From positions 1,736,001 to 1,800,000 of the forward strand of contig NZ_CP119802.1 in NCBI RefSeq assembly GCF_029338355.1: a DNA stretch of 64,000 nucleotides, written 5' to 3'. Within the stretch, counting starts at the first letter, position 1. Each line of letters begins with the position of its first letter. Positions 8,244 through 58,763 of this stretch are shown one piece after another. The DNA comes from Halosegnis marinus (GTDB lineage Archaea; Halobacteriota; Halobacteria; Halobacteriales; Haloarculaceae). The position numbers were made by a program, and so were the translations under genes. The notes below the pieces were generated by a model. The model was not told where the DNA came from, ran no database searches, and worked only from the letters and a program-made list of their open reading frames with translations.

Positions 8244-10616
8244 TCAGGCGGAGGCGCTGCCGCTCGCGCTCCCGCCGCGTTCGCTGCCGTTCTCGTCCGT
8301 TTCCTCCTCCTCGCCGTCGCCGGCGACCTCGTACTCTATCGCGAGGTCGTCGGGGACGCTGTAGGGCACGCCGTCCGCGTCGACGACCCACGCGATGCCG
8401 ACGTCGGCGGTGTTCGTCCCGCTCCCGGAGTCGCGGTACTCGCTGTCCTCGACGGTGAACGTCGCGGCGACGAAGCTCCCGTTCGGCGCCGACCGGACTT
8501 CGAGCGACTGGGTGGACGCCGTCGCCTCGTCGCTCGACCAGCCCGCGCTGCCGCGGGCGGACCCGTACTCGACCGCGTCGGTGAGGTCGAGCCGCAGCCC
8601 GACCGCCGGGCCGCCGCTCCGGTTCGCGTCGAACCGGAGCGCGCCGATGCCGTTATCGACTCCGGCGAGCGTCAGGTTCGTCGTCGCGGAGCCGTTCTCG
8701 GGCACCGTCAGCGACGTGTCCGCCGCCGTCAGCGACACCAGCCGTTCCTCGCGGACGACGACCAGCACCGTGCTGCCGGCGTCGGTCGCCTCGCCCGTCT
8801 CGGCGCCGTCGACGCGGACCCGGTACAGCCCCGCGTCGAGCGCGCCGGCGTCGACGGTGAGGTTCCGGTCGGCGTCGTCACCGATCTCGACGTGCGTCGG
8901 GGCCTCGGTCCCGCCCCAGCCGTCGTCGCCCGAGAGCGCCTCGCCGGTCGTGCTCGCGTTCACCGTGCCCCCGCGCAGCCGGTAGAGGGACACGTCGGCG
9001 GTGAAGTTCGCGGGCCGCGCCTCCACGCCGAACTCGACGGTCGTGTTCCCCTCGTAGGTGCGCACGACCCGCTCCTCGACGGGCGGCGAGTAGCGGCGCT
9101 CGCTCGACCGGTCGACCAGCCGCACGGACTGCTCGTCGAGGCCGAAGGCGGCCTCGTCGGCCGAGCCGGCGAGGCCCGTCACCTCGCCGTCCTCGACGGT
9201 GAGCCACAGGCCCGCGTCGTTGCGGATCGCGTACTCGCCGCGGGCGAGCGTCGCGGTCTCGAAGACGGCCTCGCCGTCCTCGGCGTCGAGGGTGCGGACG
9301 CGCCGCGGCTCGTCGTAGTCGTCGTACTCGCCGGGCACCTCGTAGAGGCCGTACGTCGCGGAGCCCGACAGTTCGAGGTTCTGCCCGCGGAGGAACGTCG
9401 CGTTCGTGGAGACGCCCGCGTCGGCCCGGAAGGCCGTGTTCTCGGGCGTCGGCACCGCGGCGGTCCGCACGGTCGCCTCGCTCGTCCGGTTCAGGTAACG
9501 GATGCCGTACAGCGCGACCGTGCCGTCGTCGCGGAGCCGCTGTGCCGTCGTCGCGGACACCGTGGTGTCACCCTCGACCGCGCGGCTCGCGTAGTCGCCG
9601 TCCGCCGTGACGTGCGTCAGGCGGGCGCCGCGCTCGCGGAACTCGCCGTCGACGTCGTTGAGGAGCAACAGCCCCTCGTCGGTCGCGACCGCCGCGCGGG
9701 CGTAGGACCGCTGGCTCTCGCCGAAGGTGCGGCTCCAGGCCACGTCGCCCTCCGCGGTGAGCCGCGCCGCCCAGACGCTCGACCGGGCGAACGCCGTCTC
9801 GGCGCTGCCGCCCACGAGCACGCCGCCGTCGTCGGTCGCCGTCGCGCCGGAGACGGTCCGGTCGTCGAACGGTCCGCCGACCGACGCGTTCACCAGCACG
9901 TCGCCGTCGGCGTCGGTGCGGAGGACCCAGCCCTCGCCGTAGCTCACCTCGCCCGCGACGACGAGGCCGCCGTCGTCGGTCCGCGAGACGGACCGCGGGG
10001 TGCCGCCGTCGTAGCGCCGGTCGCTCGTCGTCTCGCCGTTCGGGGAGACGACCCGGATTCGGGTGCCGCGGCGCTCGGCCTCGCGGTCGAGGTAGCCCGT
10101 CGCCACCGTCACGCCGCCCCGCGGCGAGGCGAGGAGGTCACCCGCGCTCGCGTAGCCGGTGACGTTCCCCAGCGACTTCGTCCACATCGTCTCGCCGTCG
10201 GGGGCGACGCGGCGCAGTCGGAGCGTCGGGGGCGTCTCGTAGTCGTAGGGGCTTCCCTGTACCACCCGTTCGAGGACGTACGCGCCCGGCAGCGGCCCGG
10301 ACGCGACCGCCATCCCCGAACTCAGCGTGTCGTTCGAGCCGAACGTCCGCCGCCAGCGGGTCTCGCCGTCGGGGCCGCGGCGCACGAGCGTCGTGTTCCG
10401 GCCCGTGACGGACTCGGCGCCGACGAGGTACTCGCCGCCGTCGCCCGCCGTCGCCACGCCGGTCACGGCCGCGAACCCGGCCAGCGTCTCGTTCGTGTTC
10501 GATGCGTCGTGCCCGTCCGCGGCCGGCGTGCCCGCGGCGGCGACGCCCGGAAGCATCGCCATCGGGGCCGCGACCAGCAGGGCCGCGAACAGGAGGGGGA
10601 CCAATCGTCGCGTCAT
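8244..10616 (-). CDS. Secreted multi-domain surface protein (propeller plus beta domains)
   Basis: A 790-residue protein with an N-terminal signal peptide (LVPLLFAALLVAAPMAM, cleavage near VAAAG). Residues about 45-370 hold repeated strands of the type DGGxLVGG and GETRWRRTF, as in PQQ- or kelch-like beta-propellers. A region at about 395-530 resembles the BGTF/DUF7827 beta domains of haloarchaeal surface proteins (LRGQNLELSGSATYGLYEV), and about 650-770 resembles a cohesin-type fold. It ends in an acidic tail with Ser/Ala, without a PGF-CTERM anchor. The ATG lies 115 bases from the divergent Tat lipoprotein gene at 10731. The domain names are tentative. Confidence 0.75.
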   Translation of the reverse strand: MTRRLVPLLFAALLVAAPMAMLPGVAAAGTPAADGHDASNTNETLAGFAAVTGVATAGDGGEYLVGAESVTGRNTTLVRRGPDGETRWRRTFGSNDTLSSGMAVASGPLPGAYVLERVVQGSPYDYETPPTLRLRRVAPDGETMWTKSLGNVTGYASAGDLLASPRGGVTVATGYLDREAERRGTRIRVVSPNGETTSDRRYDGGTPRSVSRTDDGGLVVAGEVSYGEGWVLRTDADGDVLVNASVGGPFDDRTVSGATATDDGGVLVGGSAETAFARSSVWAARLTAEGDVAWSRTFGESQRSYARAAVATDEGLLLLNDVDGEFRERGARLTHVTADGDYASRAVEGDTTVSATTAQRLRDDGTVALYGIRYLNRTSEATVRTAAVPTPENTAFRADAGVSTNATFLRGQNLELSGSATYGLYEVPGEYDDYDEPRRVRTLDAEDGEAVFETATLARGEYAIRNDAGLWLTVEDGEVTGLAGSADEAAFGLDEQSVRLVDRSSERRYSPPVEERVVRTYEGNTTVEFGVEARPANFTADVSLYRLRGGTVNASTTGEALSGDDGWGGTEAPTHVEIGDDADRNLTVDAGALDAGLYRVRVDGAETGEATDAGSTVLVVVREERLVSLTAADTSLTVPENGSATTNLTLAGVDNGIGALRFDANRSGGPAVGLRLDLTDAVEYGSARGSAGWSSDEATASTQSLEVRSAPNGSFVAATFTVEDSEYRDSGSGTNTADVGIAWVVDADGVPYSVPDDLAIEYEVAGDGEEEETDENGSERGGSASGSASA

Positions 10617-50160: not shown

Positions 50161-50448
50161 ATGGACCCGAACAACCCACACGGACGAGCGACCGGCCGAC
50201 AGCCGACACAGGGCTCGTTCACACAGGCCCCGGAACAGCAGGCGGCGGGAACCGGGGAGCCGATGCCGGTCGCGGAGATGAGCGTCTCGACGCCGACGCT
50301 CCGTCGCGTCTCGATGAACTACCCGAACGAACAGCTCCCGCTGGGCGAGAACGACTACGTCCTCGAGAGCGTCTACAACCCACAGCTCGACGCGTGGGAG
50401 GCGCTCGTGCTCGTCCGCCCCGAGGACGACGAGGGGAGCGACGAGTAA
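50161..50448 (+). CDS. Small haloarchaeal protein with Gln/Thr-rich tail, unknown
   Basis: A 95-residue protein. The first 35 residues are disordered (Asn, Gln, Thr, Gly, Pro). The remainder is compact, with STPTLRRVSMNYPNEQLPLGENDYVLESVYNPQLDAWEALVLV, which looks like a small beta domain, and an acidic end. No family is recognised. A TATA-like element and a GGAGG four bases before ATG 50161 support the start. It diverges from ftsZ1 and stands 206 bases before the HalOD1 gene. Confidence 0.68.
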   Translation: MDPNNPHGRATGRQPTQGSFTQAPEQQAAGTGEPMPVAEMSVSTPTLRRVSMNYPNEQLPLGENDYVLESVYNPQLDAWEALVLVRPEDDEGSDE

Positions 50449-50653: not shown

Positions 50654-50998
50654 ATGGACGACAGCAGAAACGGGTCGACTCCCGGCCCGTGTCCCCCCAC
50701 GACCGACTACCGCGCGTACCACGACCCGGACGGGACGGCCAAACTCAGCACGGCGGTGACCCACGCGCTCGCCGACGCCATGGAACAGGACGTCACGGAG
50801 GCCGGCTTCGTTCTCTTCGACACCATCGACCCCGACGCGCTCGACCGACTGTTCTCCCCCTCGCACGAGACCGAAACCCCCTCGCTCGGCCACGCCGCGT
50901 TCGTCGTCGACGACTACCGGGTGACGGTGTACAGTACGGGCGAGATCGTCATCACGCCGCCCGGCGGGCCGACGGCCAGCGGGCCGGTCCGGCCCTGA
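50654..50998 (+). CDS. HalOD1 output-domain protein
   Basis: A 114-residue protein. TAKLSTAVTHALADAM, then EAGFVLFDTIDPDALDRLFSP and HAAFVVDDYRVTVYSTGEIVI, match the HalOD1 (halobacterial output domain 1) pattern, a small alpha/beta module found alone or attached to receivers in haloarchaea. Its action is unknown; it is thought to transmit signals downstream of two-component systems. It stands alone here, with no receiver or kinase adjacent. The ATG at 50654 begins a disordered 20-residue lead. Confidence 0.82.
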   Translation: MDDSRNGSTPGPCPPTTDYRAYHDPDGTAKLSTAVTHALADAMEQDVTEAGFVLFDTIDPDALDRLFSPSHETETPSLGHAAFVVDDYRVTVYSTGEIVITPPGGPTASGPVRP

Positions 50999-51183: not shown

Positions 51184-51194
51184 TCGGATATTAC
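51184..51194 (+). promoter_or_regulatory. TATA-like element of Gln-rich protein gene
   Basis: TCGGATATTAC lies about 60-70 bases before the ATG at 51253, implying a leader of about 35-40 bases that contains the hairpin at 51224-51242. Confidence 0.4.
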
Positions 51195-51223
51195 AATGCG
51201 GCCGTGCGGGGACCGGTCAGTCG

Positions 51224-51252: not shown

Positions 51253-51795
51253 ATGAGACGATACAGCGCCAGACCACACCGACAGCGGATCGGACGGGCC
51301 CCGGAGACGACGTACGGACAGCAGTCCGTCGTGACCACCGCCGGCGGGGCCGGACAGCCCGCGTACGGACAGGTGTCCACGAACCCGTACGAGCCGCGCG
51401 TCGGGGATAGCCAGTCGATACAGTACGGCCAACAGTCCCCGCAGACACAGGGAGCGTTCCGACAGGAGGCCGCCGCGGGACAGCCGGAACAGCTCCGACA
51501 GCCTCGGCAGGGCGAGCAGTTCCAGCCGTCACAGCCGGCCCGACAGAGCCAGCAGGTCCAGCCGGCCCAGCAGGCACAACAGCTCCCGCAACAGGGCCAA
51601 CAGATACCGCCGGCCCAACAGAGCCAGCAGGTCCAGCCACCGCAGCAGGCACAACAGCTCCCGCAGCAGGCCCCGTCCGGACAGTACTCCCCCACCGAGT
51701 ACGGGCGTCCGTCGGAGGCGGGCGGGCAGCAACTTCAGGGCATCGAACAGCCGTTCGCGCAGGAGCAGCCCGGGACGGGCCGGGGACGACGGTGA
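51253..51795 (+). CDS. Glutamine-rich low-complexity protein
   Basis: A 180-residue protein made almost wholly of Gln, Pro, Ala, Ser and Gly with Tyr, and very little charge until the Arg-rich ends. It begins MRRYSARPHRQRIGR and closes GTGRGRR. Residues 98-122 and 123-147 are tandem repeats of about 25 residues (QSQQVQPAQQAQQLPQQ and QSQQVQPPQQAQQLPQQ). The composition is unlike the acidic haloarchaeal norm and like phase-separating or fibre-forming proteins. It has no signal peptide. The next gene, 70 bases on, also has a Gln-rich tail and starts similarly, so the two may act together. Confidence 0.7.
   Translation: MRRYSARPHRQRIGRAPETTYGQQSVVTTAGGAGQPAYGQVSTNPYEPRVGDSQSIQYGQQSPQTQGAFRQEAAAGQPEQLRQPRQGEQFQPSQPARQSQQVQPAQQAQQLPQQGQQIPPAQQSQQVQPPQQAQQLPQQAPSGQYSPTEYGRPSEAGGQQLQGIEQPFAQEQPGTGRGRR
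51544..51670 (+). repeat. Direct 52-base repeat pair within Gln-rich gene
   Basis: The sequence at 51544-51595 recurs at 51619-51670 with only a few substitutions, at a 75-base (25-codon) period. It is a tandem duplication within the coding frame. Confidence 0.85.
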
Positions 51796-51865
51796 CCGAC
51801 GCCCGACCGAGCGACGGCGACGCGCGAGCGACCGAGCGACGAGGACGCGGACGAGGTATCCGACG

Positions 51866-52357
51866 ATGACACAACCACGACAACAGGCGGGCGGTTACGG
51901 GACGATAGGGCCGATGGAACAACAGCAGGGGACCGTGACGGGACAGGGGTTCCCCGCCCCGGGGCCGGACATCACGCTCGAGGAGGCCATCAGCGAGGAG
52001 ATGCGCGTCGTGCTCCACGACTTCGTGGAGTCGGCGAACGTCGCCGAGTGGTGCGCCGACCGGTGTCTCGACGAGCAGGGCATGGCCGAGTGCGCCCGGC
52101 TCTGTCGGGACGTGGCCGACATCGCTCGGCTCAACGTCGAACTGCTCGCCCGCGACTCGGCGTTCGGCGCCGAGCTCGCCGAGGTGTTCGTCGTCGCGGC
52201 CGAGGCGGCCGCGCGGGAGTGCGCCCGCCACCCGACCAAGCACTGTCAGGAGTGTGCCGAGGTGCTCCCGCGGGCCGCGCGGGCCACCCGGAAGATGCTC
52301 GCTTCGTTCGAACAGGGCGGGCAGATACAGCCGGGACAGGGAATCGGGCAGTTCTGA
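51866..52357 (+). CDS. Cysteine-rich helical-bundle protein (Csp/DUF326-like)
   Basis: A 163-residue protein. Residues 1-32 and 147-163 are Gly/Gln/Pro low-complexity tails. The middle is four helices with seven Cys: 63 and 67, 76 and 80 (both C-X3-C), then 119, 127 and 130, plus His121 and His126. This recalls the four-helix-bundle copper storage protein family (Csp, DUF326), in which Cys line a bundle core and bind Cu(I). Cys are fewer than in canonical Csp1. It starts at ATG 51866, 70 bases after the Gln-rich gene, and both have similar tails, so they may interact. Confidence 0.7.
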   Translation: MTQPRQQAGGYGTIGPMEQQQGTVTGQGFPAPGPDITLEEAISEEMRVVLHDFVESANVAEWCADRCLDEQGMAECARLCRDVADIARLNVELLARDSAFGAELAEVFVVAAEAAARECARHPTKHCQECAEVLPRAARATRKMLASFEQGGQIQPGQGIGQF

Positions 52358-55922: not shown

Positions 55923-58103
55923 TCACCGGTAGGCCAGCAGCCGGAGCCCGTTCAGCGAGACGAGGACGGTCGACCCCTCGTGCCCGACGACGGCGAGCGG
56001 AAGCGGGATGCCCCGCAGGAGTATCGCCCCCACCATCAGGGCGATCGCGCCGAACGCGACGGCGAGGTTGACCGTCAGCGTCCGCCGCGTCCGCCGCCCC
56101 AGCCCCAACACGTAGGGTATCTTGCCCAGGTCGTCGCCCATCAACACGACGTCGGCGGTTTCGAGCGCGACGTCCGTCCCGGCGCCGCCCATCGCGATGC
56201 CGAGGTCGGCCGTCGCGAGCGCCGGCGCGTCGTTGACGCCGTCCCCGACCATCGCGACGGTGTCGTACCGCGTCGCCAGCTCCTCGACGGTCGCCACCTT
56301 CTCCTCGGGCAGGAGTTCCGCCCGCACCTCGTCGATGCCGACCGCCTCGCCGATGCGTCGCGCCACCCGCTCGTTGTCGCCGGTCAGCATCAGTATCCGC
56401 TCCACACCCAGCGACCGGAGGTCGGCGACCATCTCGGCGGCCCCGGGCCGCAGGGTGTCGGTGTACGCGAGCCACCCCAGCACGCGCGCGGTACCGTCCG
56501 TCTCGCGCACGACGAGGACGCTCGTCTTCCCCTCCGATTCGAGCGCGGCCAGCCGCTCCAGCCCGCGGTCCAGCCCCTCGACGGTCCCGTCGAGGACCGT
56601 CTCGACGTAGCTCCGGTTCCCGATGTGGACCGTGCCGTCCCCGACCGCCGCCCGGACGCCCTTCCCGGCCACGGCCCGGAAGTCGCGCGCCTCGGGGACG
56701 TCGAGCGCCCGGTCCTCGGCCGCCCGTACCGTCGCCCGCGCGAGGTGGTGTTCGGAGCGGCCCTGGACGGCGGCGGCGAGCGCGAGCAGGTCGCTTTCGC
56801 CCTCCGCCCCGTCGCGGACGAGCACGTCGGTCAGTTCCGTGTCGCCCCGGGTGAGCGTCCCCGTCTTGTCGAACGCCACGGCGTCGACGGTCGCCGCCGC
56901 CTCGACGTGTTCGCCGCCCTTGAACAGGACGCCCTGCCGGCCGCCCGAGGCGATGGCCGACAGCACCGCGGCGGGCGTCGAGATGATGACCGCACACGGG
57001 GAGGCGGCGACCATCAGCGTCATCGCGCGGTAGAACGCCCCCGTGAACTCGCTGCCGAGCGACAGCGGGACGGCGACGGCCGCGACCGTGAGTCCGAACA
57101 CACCGAGCACGTACGGCTGTTCCAGGCGGTCGATGAGCCGCTGGGTCGGGGCCTTCTCGCTCTGCGCGCGCTCGACCATGTGGATGAGCCGCGTGATGGC
57201 CGACTCGTGTGCCCGCCGCGTGGTCTCTATCTCCAGACTCCCGCCCTCGTTGATGGTCCCGGCGAACACCTCGTCGCCGGGCCCCTTCGCGACCGGCATC
57301 GACTCGCCGGTGAGCGACGCCTGGTCCACCGCGCTCTCGCCGGCCACGACGACGCCGTCGAGCGGCACCCTGTCGCCCGGCCGGACGACGAACACGTCGC
57401 CGACCGCCACCTCGTCTATCGGGACGGCCGTCTCCGACCCGTCGCGTATCACTCGCGCGGACTCCGGGCGCATCTCGACGAGCGACTCGATGGCGCGCCG
57501 CGACCGGCCGATGGCGTAGTGCTGGAGCGTGTTCGACAGCGAGAACAGGAACAGCAGCATCGCCCCCTCGAACGGCGCCCCGATGGAGAGCGCGCCGAGC
57601 GCGGCGACGATCATCAGCAGGTCGATGTCGACGGCTCGGTGCCGCAGCGTCTCGACCGCGCCCCGGAGCCCGTACCAGCCGCCGAAGGCGTACGCCGCGC
57701 CGTAGCCCAGCCACGCCAGCGCCCGCGGCCCGTCGAGCCACCCGGTCGCGAGGCCGACACCCATCCCGACGAGCGCGAGCGCGGTGAAGACGACCTCGCG
57801 CCGCAGGTCCGTTCCCGTCCCCGCGTCCGCCCCCTCCGACGCCGGGCCGTCGGTGACGGGCACGTCGTGGTCGCGTACCAGCCGTTCGAGCGCGTCCTCG
57901 GTGACGGCCTCCGCGTCGTAGCTGATGCGGACGGTTCCGGTGCGGAACGACACGTCCGCGTCGTGGACGCCGGGCGTCCCCGCGAGCGCCCGCTCGATGG
58001 AGCGCGCCCCTGCGTCACCGCGCCCGCCCCGGCGCGCGACGGGGATGACACACACCGACGGACGCGCCGGTTCCTCTGGACGCGCGGAGGCGTCGGAACT
58101 CAT
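55923..58103 (-). CDS. Heavy-metal P-type ATPase, P1B-4-like
   Basis: A 726-residue metal pump. It has an N-terminal ferredoxin-like (HMA) fold at about 35-85 that lacks the usual CxxC, about 6-8 membrane helices, an A-domain LTGESMPVAKG, the metal-site motif SPC (about residues 366-368) instead of CPC, phosphorylation motif DKTGT (about 411-415), ATP-binding GDGVNDAPAL, and HEGSTVLVSLN at about 706 in the last helix. SPC plus HEGS/T marks the P1B-4 group, which exports Co2+, Fe2+, Zn2+ or related ions. The start is ATG 58103. Its start overlaps the stop of the universal stress protein gene (ATGA). Confidence 0.9.
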   Translation of the reverse strand: MSSDASARPEEPARPSVCVIPVARRGGRGDAGARSIERALAGTPGVHDADVSFRTGTVRISYDAEAVTEDALERLVRDHDVPVTDGPASEGADAGTGTDLRREVVFTALALVGMGVGLATGWLDGPRALAWLGYGAAYAFGGWYGLRGAVETLRHRAVDIDLLMIVAALGALSIGAPFEGAMLLFLFSLSNTLQHYAIGRSRRAIESLVEMRPESARVIRDGSETAVPIDEVAVGDVFVVRPGDRVPLDGVVVAGESAVDQASLTGESMPVAKGPGDEVFAGTINEGGSLEIETTRRAHESAITRLIHMVERAQSEKAPTQRLIDRLEQPYVLGVFGLTVAAVAVPLSLGSEFTGAFYRAMTLMVAASPCAVIISTPAAVLSAIASGGRQGVLFKGGEHVEAAATVDAVAFDKTGTLTRGDTELTDVLVRDGAEGESDLLALAAAVQGRSEHHLARATVRAAEDRALDVPEARDFRAVAGKGVRAAVGDGTVHIGNRSYVETVLDGTVEGLDRGLERLAALESEGKTSVLVVRETDGTARVLGWLAYTDTLRPGAAEMVADLRSLGVERILMLTGDNERVARRIGEAVGIDEVRAELLPEEKVATVEELATRYDTVAMVGDGVNDAPALATADLGIAMGGAGTDVALETADVVLMGDDLGKIPYVLGLGRRTRRTLTVNLAVAFGAIALMVGAILLRGIPLPLAVVGHEGSTVLVSLNGLRLLAYR

Positions 58104-58528
58104 CGGACGACGGTCACCGGCCGCCGGCCGTCCCGTACCACCCGCTCGGCCACGCTCCCGAGGAGCGCCCGCTCGATGCCCTCGCGCCCGTGGCTCCCCA
58201 GCAGTATCAGGTCGACGTCGTGGTCCTCGGCGTAGTCGAGTATCGCCCGCGCGGGCCGGCCGACCGTCGTCGCCGTCGCGAGTTCGACACCGTGTTCGTC
58301 CGCGATACCCCGCGCCTCCTCGTGAATCTCCGCCGCCCGCTCCCGTGCCCGCTCGTACCAGCCGTCGGCGACGGGAAGCCCCCCGGCCTCCGCGGCGACT
58401 ATCGAATCGACCGGGTCGATGACGTGGAGGGTCGTGACGGACGCCCCCGGGAAGTTCTCGACGGCGTAGCGGACGGCGCGGCGGGCGAGCGGCGAGCCGT
58501 CGACGGGAACGAGAAGGCTGTCCGGCAT
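58100..58528 (-). CDS. Universal stress protein (UspA family)
   Basis: A 142-residue single-domain Usp. SLLVPVDGSPLARRAVRYAV opens the fold and the ATP-binding loop is GSHGREGIERALLGSVAERVV (G-X2-G-X9-G-S/A). Its TGA overlaps the ATG of the metal ATPase, so the two are cotranscribed and translated together, suggesting that the protein serves metal or oxidative stress. A TATA-like element (minus strand CATATGTT around 58548-58558) lies about 25 bases before ATG 58528. Confidence 0.88.
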   Translation of the reverse strand: MPDSLLVPVDGSPLARRAVRYAVENFPGASVTTLHVIDPVDSIVAAEAGGLPVADGWYERARERAAEIHEEARGIADEHGVELATATTVGRPARAILDYAEDHDVDLILLGSHGREGIERALLGSVAERVVRDGRRPVTVVR

Positions 58529-58763
58529 ACCGGTGATGTGCCACGTGAACATATGAGAATACCGCTCGGGGGGCCGGGCCGCTTCGGGACCGCGTCCGTC
58601 GCGGTCGCGCCGCTCGGCAGTCCGGTCGTCGCCCCGGTTCCCGGCCGCTCCCGCCTCCTCCGGGCGGCTTTCGGACGCTCCCTCTCTTCGCCTTTCGCGG
58701 CCGGAACACCGATTTGCTATCGCAGTATATCGTTTATGTTTCCTCGCCTCCCCCGCCGGGCGG

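Follow-up and report, generated by a model that had tools for sequence, protein, structure and literature searches.

Glutamine-rich genes beside cysteine-reduced relatives of the copper-storage proteins in haloarchaea: a possible new architecture within the Csp superfamily

Two adjacent genes on the plus strand of a 64 kb stretch of haloarchaeal DNA, referred to here as the window, raise the question of what a glutamine-rich, low-complexity protein of 180 residues and a cysteine-bearing protein of 163 residues have to do with each other. Both open reading frames (ORFs), at 51253–51795 and 51866–52357, were recovered as first described, the end of one and the start of the other being separated by 70 bp. 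The initial annotation had proposed that the two products co-assemble, perhaps around a store of Cu(I), Fe-S or another soft metal. In the open-access literature, no papers on Gln-rich proteins in haloarchaea were found, nor experiments on any member of the tailed, Cys-reduced class described below.

The two genes and their products

The upstream ORF (51253–51795, +), whose counterparts occur in 11 genera, encodes 49 Gln (27%), 22 Pro (12%), 20 Gly (11%), no Cys, and few charged or aliphatic residues. Its GC content by codon position (0.78/0.52/0.79) is coding-like and resembles that of neighbouring genes, and its start is supported by an N-terminus, MRRYSxRxH, shared with the separate Gln-rich genes of two other genera (loci L120 and L124). 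In a genome-wide tally that relied on a DNA pattern for dense Gln, 9 of the 39 matches in the window's genome fell within this ORF; among the matches inspected, all but the last eight or so, its peak Gln content over 40 residues was 55%, against 35% in the next-best ORF. A TTACAAT box, present once in the window, lies 62 nt upstream of the gene (51191–51197, +). The same box precedes the Gln-rich gene in L120, L121, and L122, where TTACAATAC is found 86–90 nt upstream of the counterpart gene, and it may represent a promoter or an operator.

The downstream ORF (51866–52357, +) encodes seven Cys, and its product was recognized as a Gln-tailed, Cys-reduced homologue of the copper-storage protein (Csp) Csp3 through phmmer, the TIGR04401 profile, and a fold model. 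While a Pfam search yielded no matches, phmmer searches of the PDB with the single sequence retrieved Csp3 from Bacillus subtilis (BsCsp3, 5fig; E 3e-6) and Csp from Streptomyces lividans (E 6e-4), and the NCBIfam family TIGR04401 (Csp1) matched at E 8e-5, scoring 22.8 bits where the family cutoff is 100. Translation and modelling bore out the description of a seven-cysteine helical core with Gln-bearing tails. A four-helix bundle at residues 44–149 (51995–52312, +), with helices at 44–69, 74–95, 99–119, and 125–149 and pLDDT above 90 for most residues, is flanked by an N-terminal Gln/Gly/Pro tail (residues 1–43; 51866–51994, +) and a C-terminal Gln/Gly tail (residues 150–163; 52313–52354, +). 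The C-terminal tail and most of the N-terminal one are predicted to be disordered; pLDDT is mostly below 50 in the tails, in the N-terminal one as far as residue 36. The model, obtained with AlphaFold2 as a single chain without templates, superposes on Csp3 structures with an rmsd of 1.2–1.7 Å and Z of 17–18, compared with 12.6 or less for unrelated four-helix bundles, and its four helices lie within 1.2 Å of those of BsCsp3. The input alignment consisted of bacterial Csp relatives and may bias the model towards the Csp fold, but that alignment played no part in the single-sequence match. The product belongs, as a divergent member, to the cytosolic Csp superfamily. It was the only Csp match in the window's genome, and five sister-species genomes of the same genus gave no match, so the gene is not essential in that genus.

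The cytosolic kinship also bears on where these proteins act. Given that amyloid dyes bind the biofilm matrix of Haloferax volcanii (PMC7582709) and that the Gln-rich composition is like that of prion-like domains, the upstream product might be exported to build an amyloid-like fibre outside the cell or at its surface. This is very improbable: on inspection, neither N-terminus shows a hydrophobic segment or signal peptide (for the Csp-like protein, MTQPRQQAGGYG was examined by eye with a Tat signal peptide in mind), and the partner is related to cytosolic Csp3.

Glutamine-rich segments in the cysteine-reduced class

Csp-like matches are present in 155 of 293 genomes of the order. The loci that were read provided 103 distinct cores, comprising 44 canonical ones with at least 10 Cys, 30 with 6–9, and 29 low-Cys ones with at most 5. 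Gln-rich tails, scored when Gln made up 20% or more of any 40-residue stretch beyond the core, were absent from all 44 canonical proteins and present in 27/30 of the 6–9-Cys class and 27/29 of the low-Cys class, that is, in 54 of the 59 Cys-reduced proteins. Low-complexity Gln-rich sequence had been considered exceptional in haloarchaea; in this Csp-like class it is instead the rule. The three 6–9-Cys proteins with sub-threshold tails (those of the window, L043, and L127) all have a separate Gln-rich gene. In a tree built from a short alignment with weak inner forks, the canonical set and BsCsp3 fall on one side of a branch (support 100/98) and all Cys-reduced proteins on the other, with the window protein pairing with that of L120 in genome G326 (98/97), a sister from another genus to which it is 72% identical. 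Cysteine loss reaches its extreme in a Gln-tailed Csp-like protein of L179 (7800–8846), whose core holds a single Cys, so loss of a Cys-based metal site need not entail loss of the bundle.

To count as a separate Gln-rich gene, an ORF had to lie no more than 1.5 kb away on the Csp strand and to contain 13% Gln or more over its full length and 35% or more over 40 residues. Such a gene accompanies 17 of the 30 members of the 6–9-Cys class (16 detected by scripts with crude gene calls, plus L131, which they missed owing to overlapping ORF calls), and none of the 44 canonical or 29 low-Cys proteins. These proportions differ with Fisher p values of 5e-9 and 6e-7, respectively, uncorrected for the relatedness of the genomes and drawn from loci selected in part for similarity to the window protein or for holding its class. 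The 17 paired loci span 11 genera in three families. The gene is always on the Csp strand; it precedes the Csp gene in the group to which the window protein belongs and follows it in a second one. A motif, RDPxTGxF, occurs nine times in six-frame translations of 1.3 Mb, always within Gln-rich partners, some of which lie upstream and others downstream of the Csp gene.

Coincidental proximity of two unrelated genes could draw on the window's own Gln-rich protein, which lacks RDPxTGxF, is together with that of L043 the least Gln-rich of the partner set, and, used alone as a blast query against 146 genomes, matched only itself. Low complexity makes this protein an unsuitable query, and its counterparts were for that reason located by position. 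Recurrence of the pair in 11 genera contradicts coincidence, as does the 72%-identical sister, which has an upstream Gln-rich gene beginning with MRRYSxRxH and the same gene order despite interposed genes; the idea is scarcely credible. Homologues without a Gln-rich neighbour, which the initial annotation had regarded as an argument for chance, are indeed numerous, including 13/30 of the 6–9-Cys class and all low-Cys proteins within 1.5 kb. However, the Cys-reduced ones nearly all carry the segment fused to the core, which supports the association. As far as sequence comparison can tell, the two neighbouring genes are paired beyond chance, with the Gln-rich segment supplied in cis or in trans. 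The resemblance between tails and partner that had been noted holds for Gln; beyond it, the non-Gln composition of the two does not covary (p 0.35).

In L127 (7372–7756), a Gln-rich ORF of 74 residues and a further stretch of Gln-rich, coding-like sequence immediately precede a Csp that has almost no tail. The sister genes in the same genus (L126 and L049) have the fused tail, and this looks like a recent split or frameshift.

Gene neighbourhood

Two further plus-strand genes precede the pair. The first (50161–50448, +) encodes a 95-residue protein with a Gln-bearing N-terminal tail and a conserved C-terminal domain (STPTLxRVS...LGxxDxVLxSVYNxQLDxWEALVxVxP, with an acidic end) that belongs to no Pfam family; its single-sequence model is three-stranded, of low confidence, and too weak to name the fold. 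Relatives occur in genomes G326 and G369, with a partial match just downstream of the Csp in L043. The second (50654–50998, +) encodes a 114-residue HalOD1-domain protein (Pfam PF18545, E 1e-19), whose G326 counterpart, 66% identical, occupies the equivalent position in the cluster there; more copies lie near the cluster in L124, L133, and L170. The order 95-residue protein–HalOD1–Gln-rich protein–Csp is that of G326 (L120), although there other genes, about 6 kb in all, interrupt the series. In G250, a sister species, the MFS neighbour was the only syntenic element found.

Comparison within the Haloarculaceae, in which loci were partly chosen for the window's class and neighbour counts come from related genomes, revealed 23 further Gln-rich or Gln-tailed ORFs in the 17 loci of the 6–9-Cys class and none in 17 canonical loci. 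Trehalose genes (OtsA/OtsB; 4/17), DUF5789 (8/17), CBS (5/17), and Dps (2/17) genes were likewise found near the former and never near the latter, while BrkB was frequent near both (8/17 and 5/17). The window's own surroundings hold no trehalose, CBS, or Dps gene.

These surroundings are congenial to a hydrophilin-like interpretation, in which the Gln-rich protein and the tails are disordered, hydrophilic chains that hold water and protect proteins when cells dry out or salt shifts, with no specific assembly, and the bundle serves only as an oligomeric carrier. The chains are rich in Gln and Gly and poor in aliphatic residues; trehalose synthesis, DUF5789, BrkB, and Dps genes lie near relatives; and one core has eroded to a single Cys. 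Left unexplained are the specific company that the Gln-rich segment keeps with Csp-derived bundles, the conservation of RDPxTGxF, and the near-invariant Cys at the bundle mouth of the 6–9-Cys class, which make such protectants a rather unlikely account.

Some of the neighbouring CBS, Dps, and phasin-like proteins themselves bear Gln-rich tails. A Dps-type ferritin in L124 (11433–12272), close to the tailed Csp cluster, has them at both ends. CBS-domain proteins with Gln/Pro-rich N-terminal tails are encoded in L121 (5774–6658), L122 (4161–4907), L124 (5548–6552), and L133 (536–1417); in L121 and L122 the gene immediately precedes the Gln-rich one. Phasin-like helical proteins with long Gln/Pro-rich C-terminal tails occur in L120 (10402–11490), L124 (4758–5480), L133 (2895–3614), and L169 (307–1125). 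They gave no Pfam or NCBIfam matches, and their genes adjoin HalOD1 genes in L124, L133, and a plasmid of Halorientalis sp. IM1011. A protein of about 79 residues with a weak DUF7130 match (L043, 4752–4991; also L049, L120, L126, and L127) is encoded immediately before the tailed Csp or with one gene between them, and also near canonical Csp genes in L172–L176.

The Halorientalis plasmid, pHOS100, has the same surroundings, and its tailed Csp is annotated as hypothetical. At L201 (NZ_CP019069.1), a 290-residue partner with 48% Gln (9523–10446) is annotated as a truncated fragment with an antisense ORF over it. Similar Gln-rich genes have probably been missed in other haloarchaeal genomes, which points to an annotation blind spot.

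Cysteine pattern, proposed assembly, and known systems

Alignment to BsCsp3 places the retained Cys 63, 67, 76, 80, 119, 127, and 130 (52052–52255, +) at BsCsp3 positions 22, 26, 38, 42, 81, 89, and 92. They sit at the end of helix 1, the start of helix 2, the end of helix 3, and the start of helix 4, and all cluster at the bundle end marked by the α3-loop-α4 His motif. Of the Csp3 mouth ligands, the Cys at BsCsp3 positions 22, 26, 38, 81, 89, and 92 are retained, along with the equivalents of two of the three His, His84 and His88 (His122 and His126); that of His86 is Thr. Positions 45, 49, 67, 70, 74, 77, 96, 99, and 103 are occupied by residues other than Cys. Throughout the 6–9-Cys class the mouth Cys are near-invariant, and the window protein has lost the buried core Cys; a further tailed class retains 4–5 Cys, little beyond the four of the helix 1–helix 2 hairpin.

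In Csp3, the mouth with its His motif is the site of Cu(I) entry and exit (PMC5171941; PMC10155185; PMC5519932), and in MtCsp3 twelve central sites dominate copper loading while five mouth sites lag (PMC5519932). Against this background, Cu(I) appears to be the best-supported soft metal for the Cys bundle, because the bundle belongs to the copper-storage family; this much of the proposed metal store endures. Bulk storage of copper or another metal is nevertheless unlikely as the unifying function, since the ligands of the core have disappeared and the tails persist where most Cys do not. The CxxxC...CxxxC hairpin (63/67/76/80), which the low-Cys class has for the most part kept, could accommodate other metals, such as Fe-S or Zn. 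A P-type ATPase at 55923–58709 was considered as a copper partner and set aside, its best match being the Zn/Cd subfamily and its position outside the conserved block.

A more modest role in copper handling would have the bundle buffer or pass on a few Cu(I) ions through its mouth ligands, the tails and the partner aiding only solubility or docking at high salt. The Csp fold, the mouth Cys with two of the three His, the known function of the mouth, and the single Csp match in the window's genome are consistent with it. The buried ligands that dominate Cu(I) binding are gone, however, low-Cys relatives with as little as one core Cys are still tailed, and no conserved copper gene was seen beside the class, whose neighbours vary between groups. 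On balance, copper handling is unlikely to be what the pair is for.

The reading tentatively favoured here is that the Gln-rich protein and the Csp-like protein form a two-part module of the haloarchaeal cytosol. Known Csps form tetramers, and a Csp-derived four-helix bundle of this kind would display several disordered Gln-rich tails and thereby act as a multivalent node. The Gln-rich protein, encoded alongside or fused in relatives, would add more cohesive low-complexity chain. Uncharged Gln-rich chains may attract one another even in multimolar KCl, which screens charge-driven assembly; if they do, the two proteins would be expected to gather in one condensate or meshwork of a reversible kind. 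Judging by the genes that surround the pair in relatives, the setting would be desiccation, osmotic, or oxidative stress, and recurrence of such pairs in eleven haloarchaeal genera points to an undescribed assembly that is probably stress-related.

A broader version is rather unlikely, though it extends the same logic. Partners of the RDPxTGxF class would be pure Gln-rich scaffolds of an undescribed cytosolic compartment, a stress body in multimolar salt that gathers Gln-tailed proteins. The Csp fold would have changed its role from storing metal to serving as an assembly node, and this would explain its stepwise loss of Cys. The Csp-derived bundles and the CBS, Dps, phasin-like, and 95-residue proteins are its conjectured clients, and their recruitment is just as uncertain.

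What makes the locus significant is that a copper-storage fold has lost its metal core while gaining Gln-rich tails and a partner, in a cytosol with multimolar salt. If the parts co-assemble, they would offer a naturally occurring test case, from outside the eukaryotes, for condensation that tolerates salt and does not depend on charge. What is claimed is a new architecture in the Csp superfamily; a new kind of assembly may lie behind it.

The chains resemble prion-like domains (yeast Q/N-rich domains and FUS-like YGQQ repeats) in combining Gln with Gly, Ser, and Tyr and having few charged or aliphatic residues. This likeness is set by composition, not sequence homology, and an RNA-binding domain is absent here; amyloid-forming archaeal prion-like domains are attributed to Zajkowski et al., as cited in PMC7582709. 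The window protein resembles exported Csp1 (TIGR04401) as a remote profile match below the family cutoff, but no signal peptide was seen and its Cys are far fewer. Canonical haloarchaeal Csps, annotated as four-helix bundle copper-binding proteins, belong to the same superfamily and share 44–50% identity with its core, whereas they mostly have 15 core Cys (13–17), lack tails, and never had a Gln-rich neighbour. With Csp3 (BsCsp3, MtCsp3, and SlCsp3), the window protein shares the closely superposable four-helix bundle, CxxxC/CxxC motifs, the lack of a visible signal peptide, and, in ECxRHPTKHCQEC, a counterpart of the His-containing α3-loop-α4 motif. It differs from classical Csp3 in having 7 rather than 18–19 Cys, with the buried ligands lost and the mouth retained, and in its disordered Gln-rich tails and Gln-rich partner gene. 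The nonclassical RkCsp3 of Methylocystis sp. Rockwell (16 Cys; PMC10155185) is likewise a variant of Csp3 whose ligand set is not the classical one. There, however, the core is kept and the mouth Cys and His motif are lost, and the window protein is the reverse.
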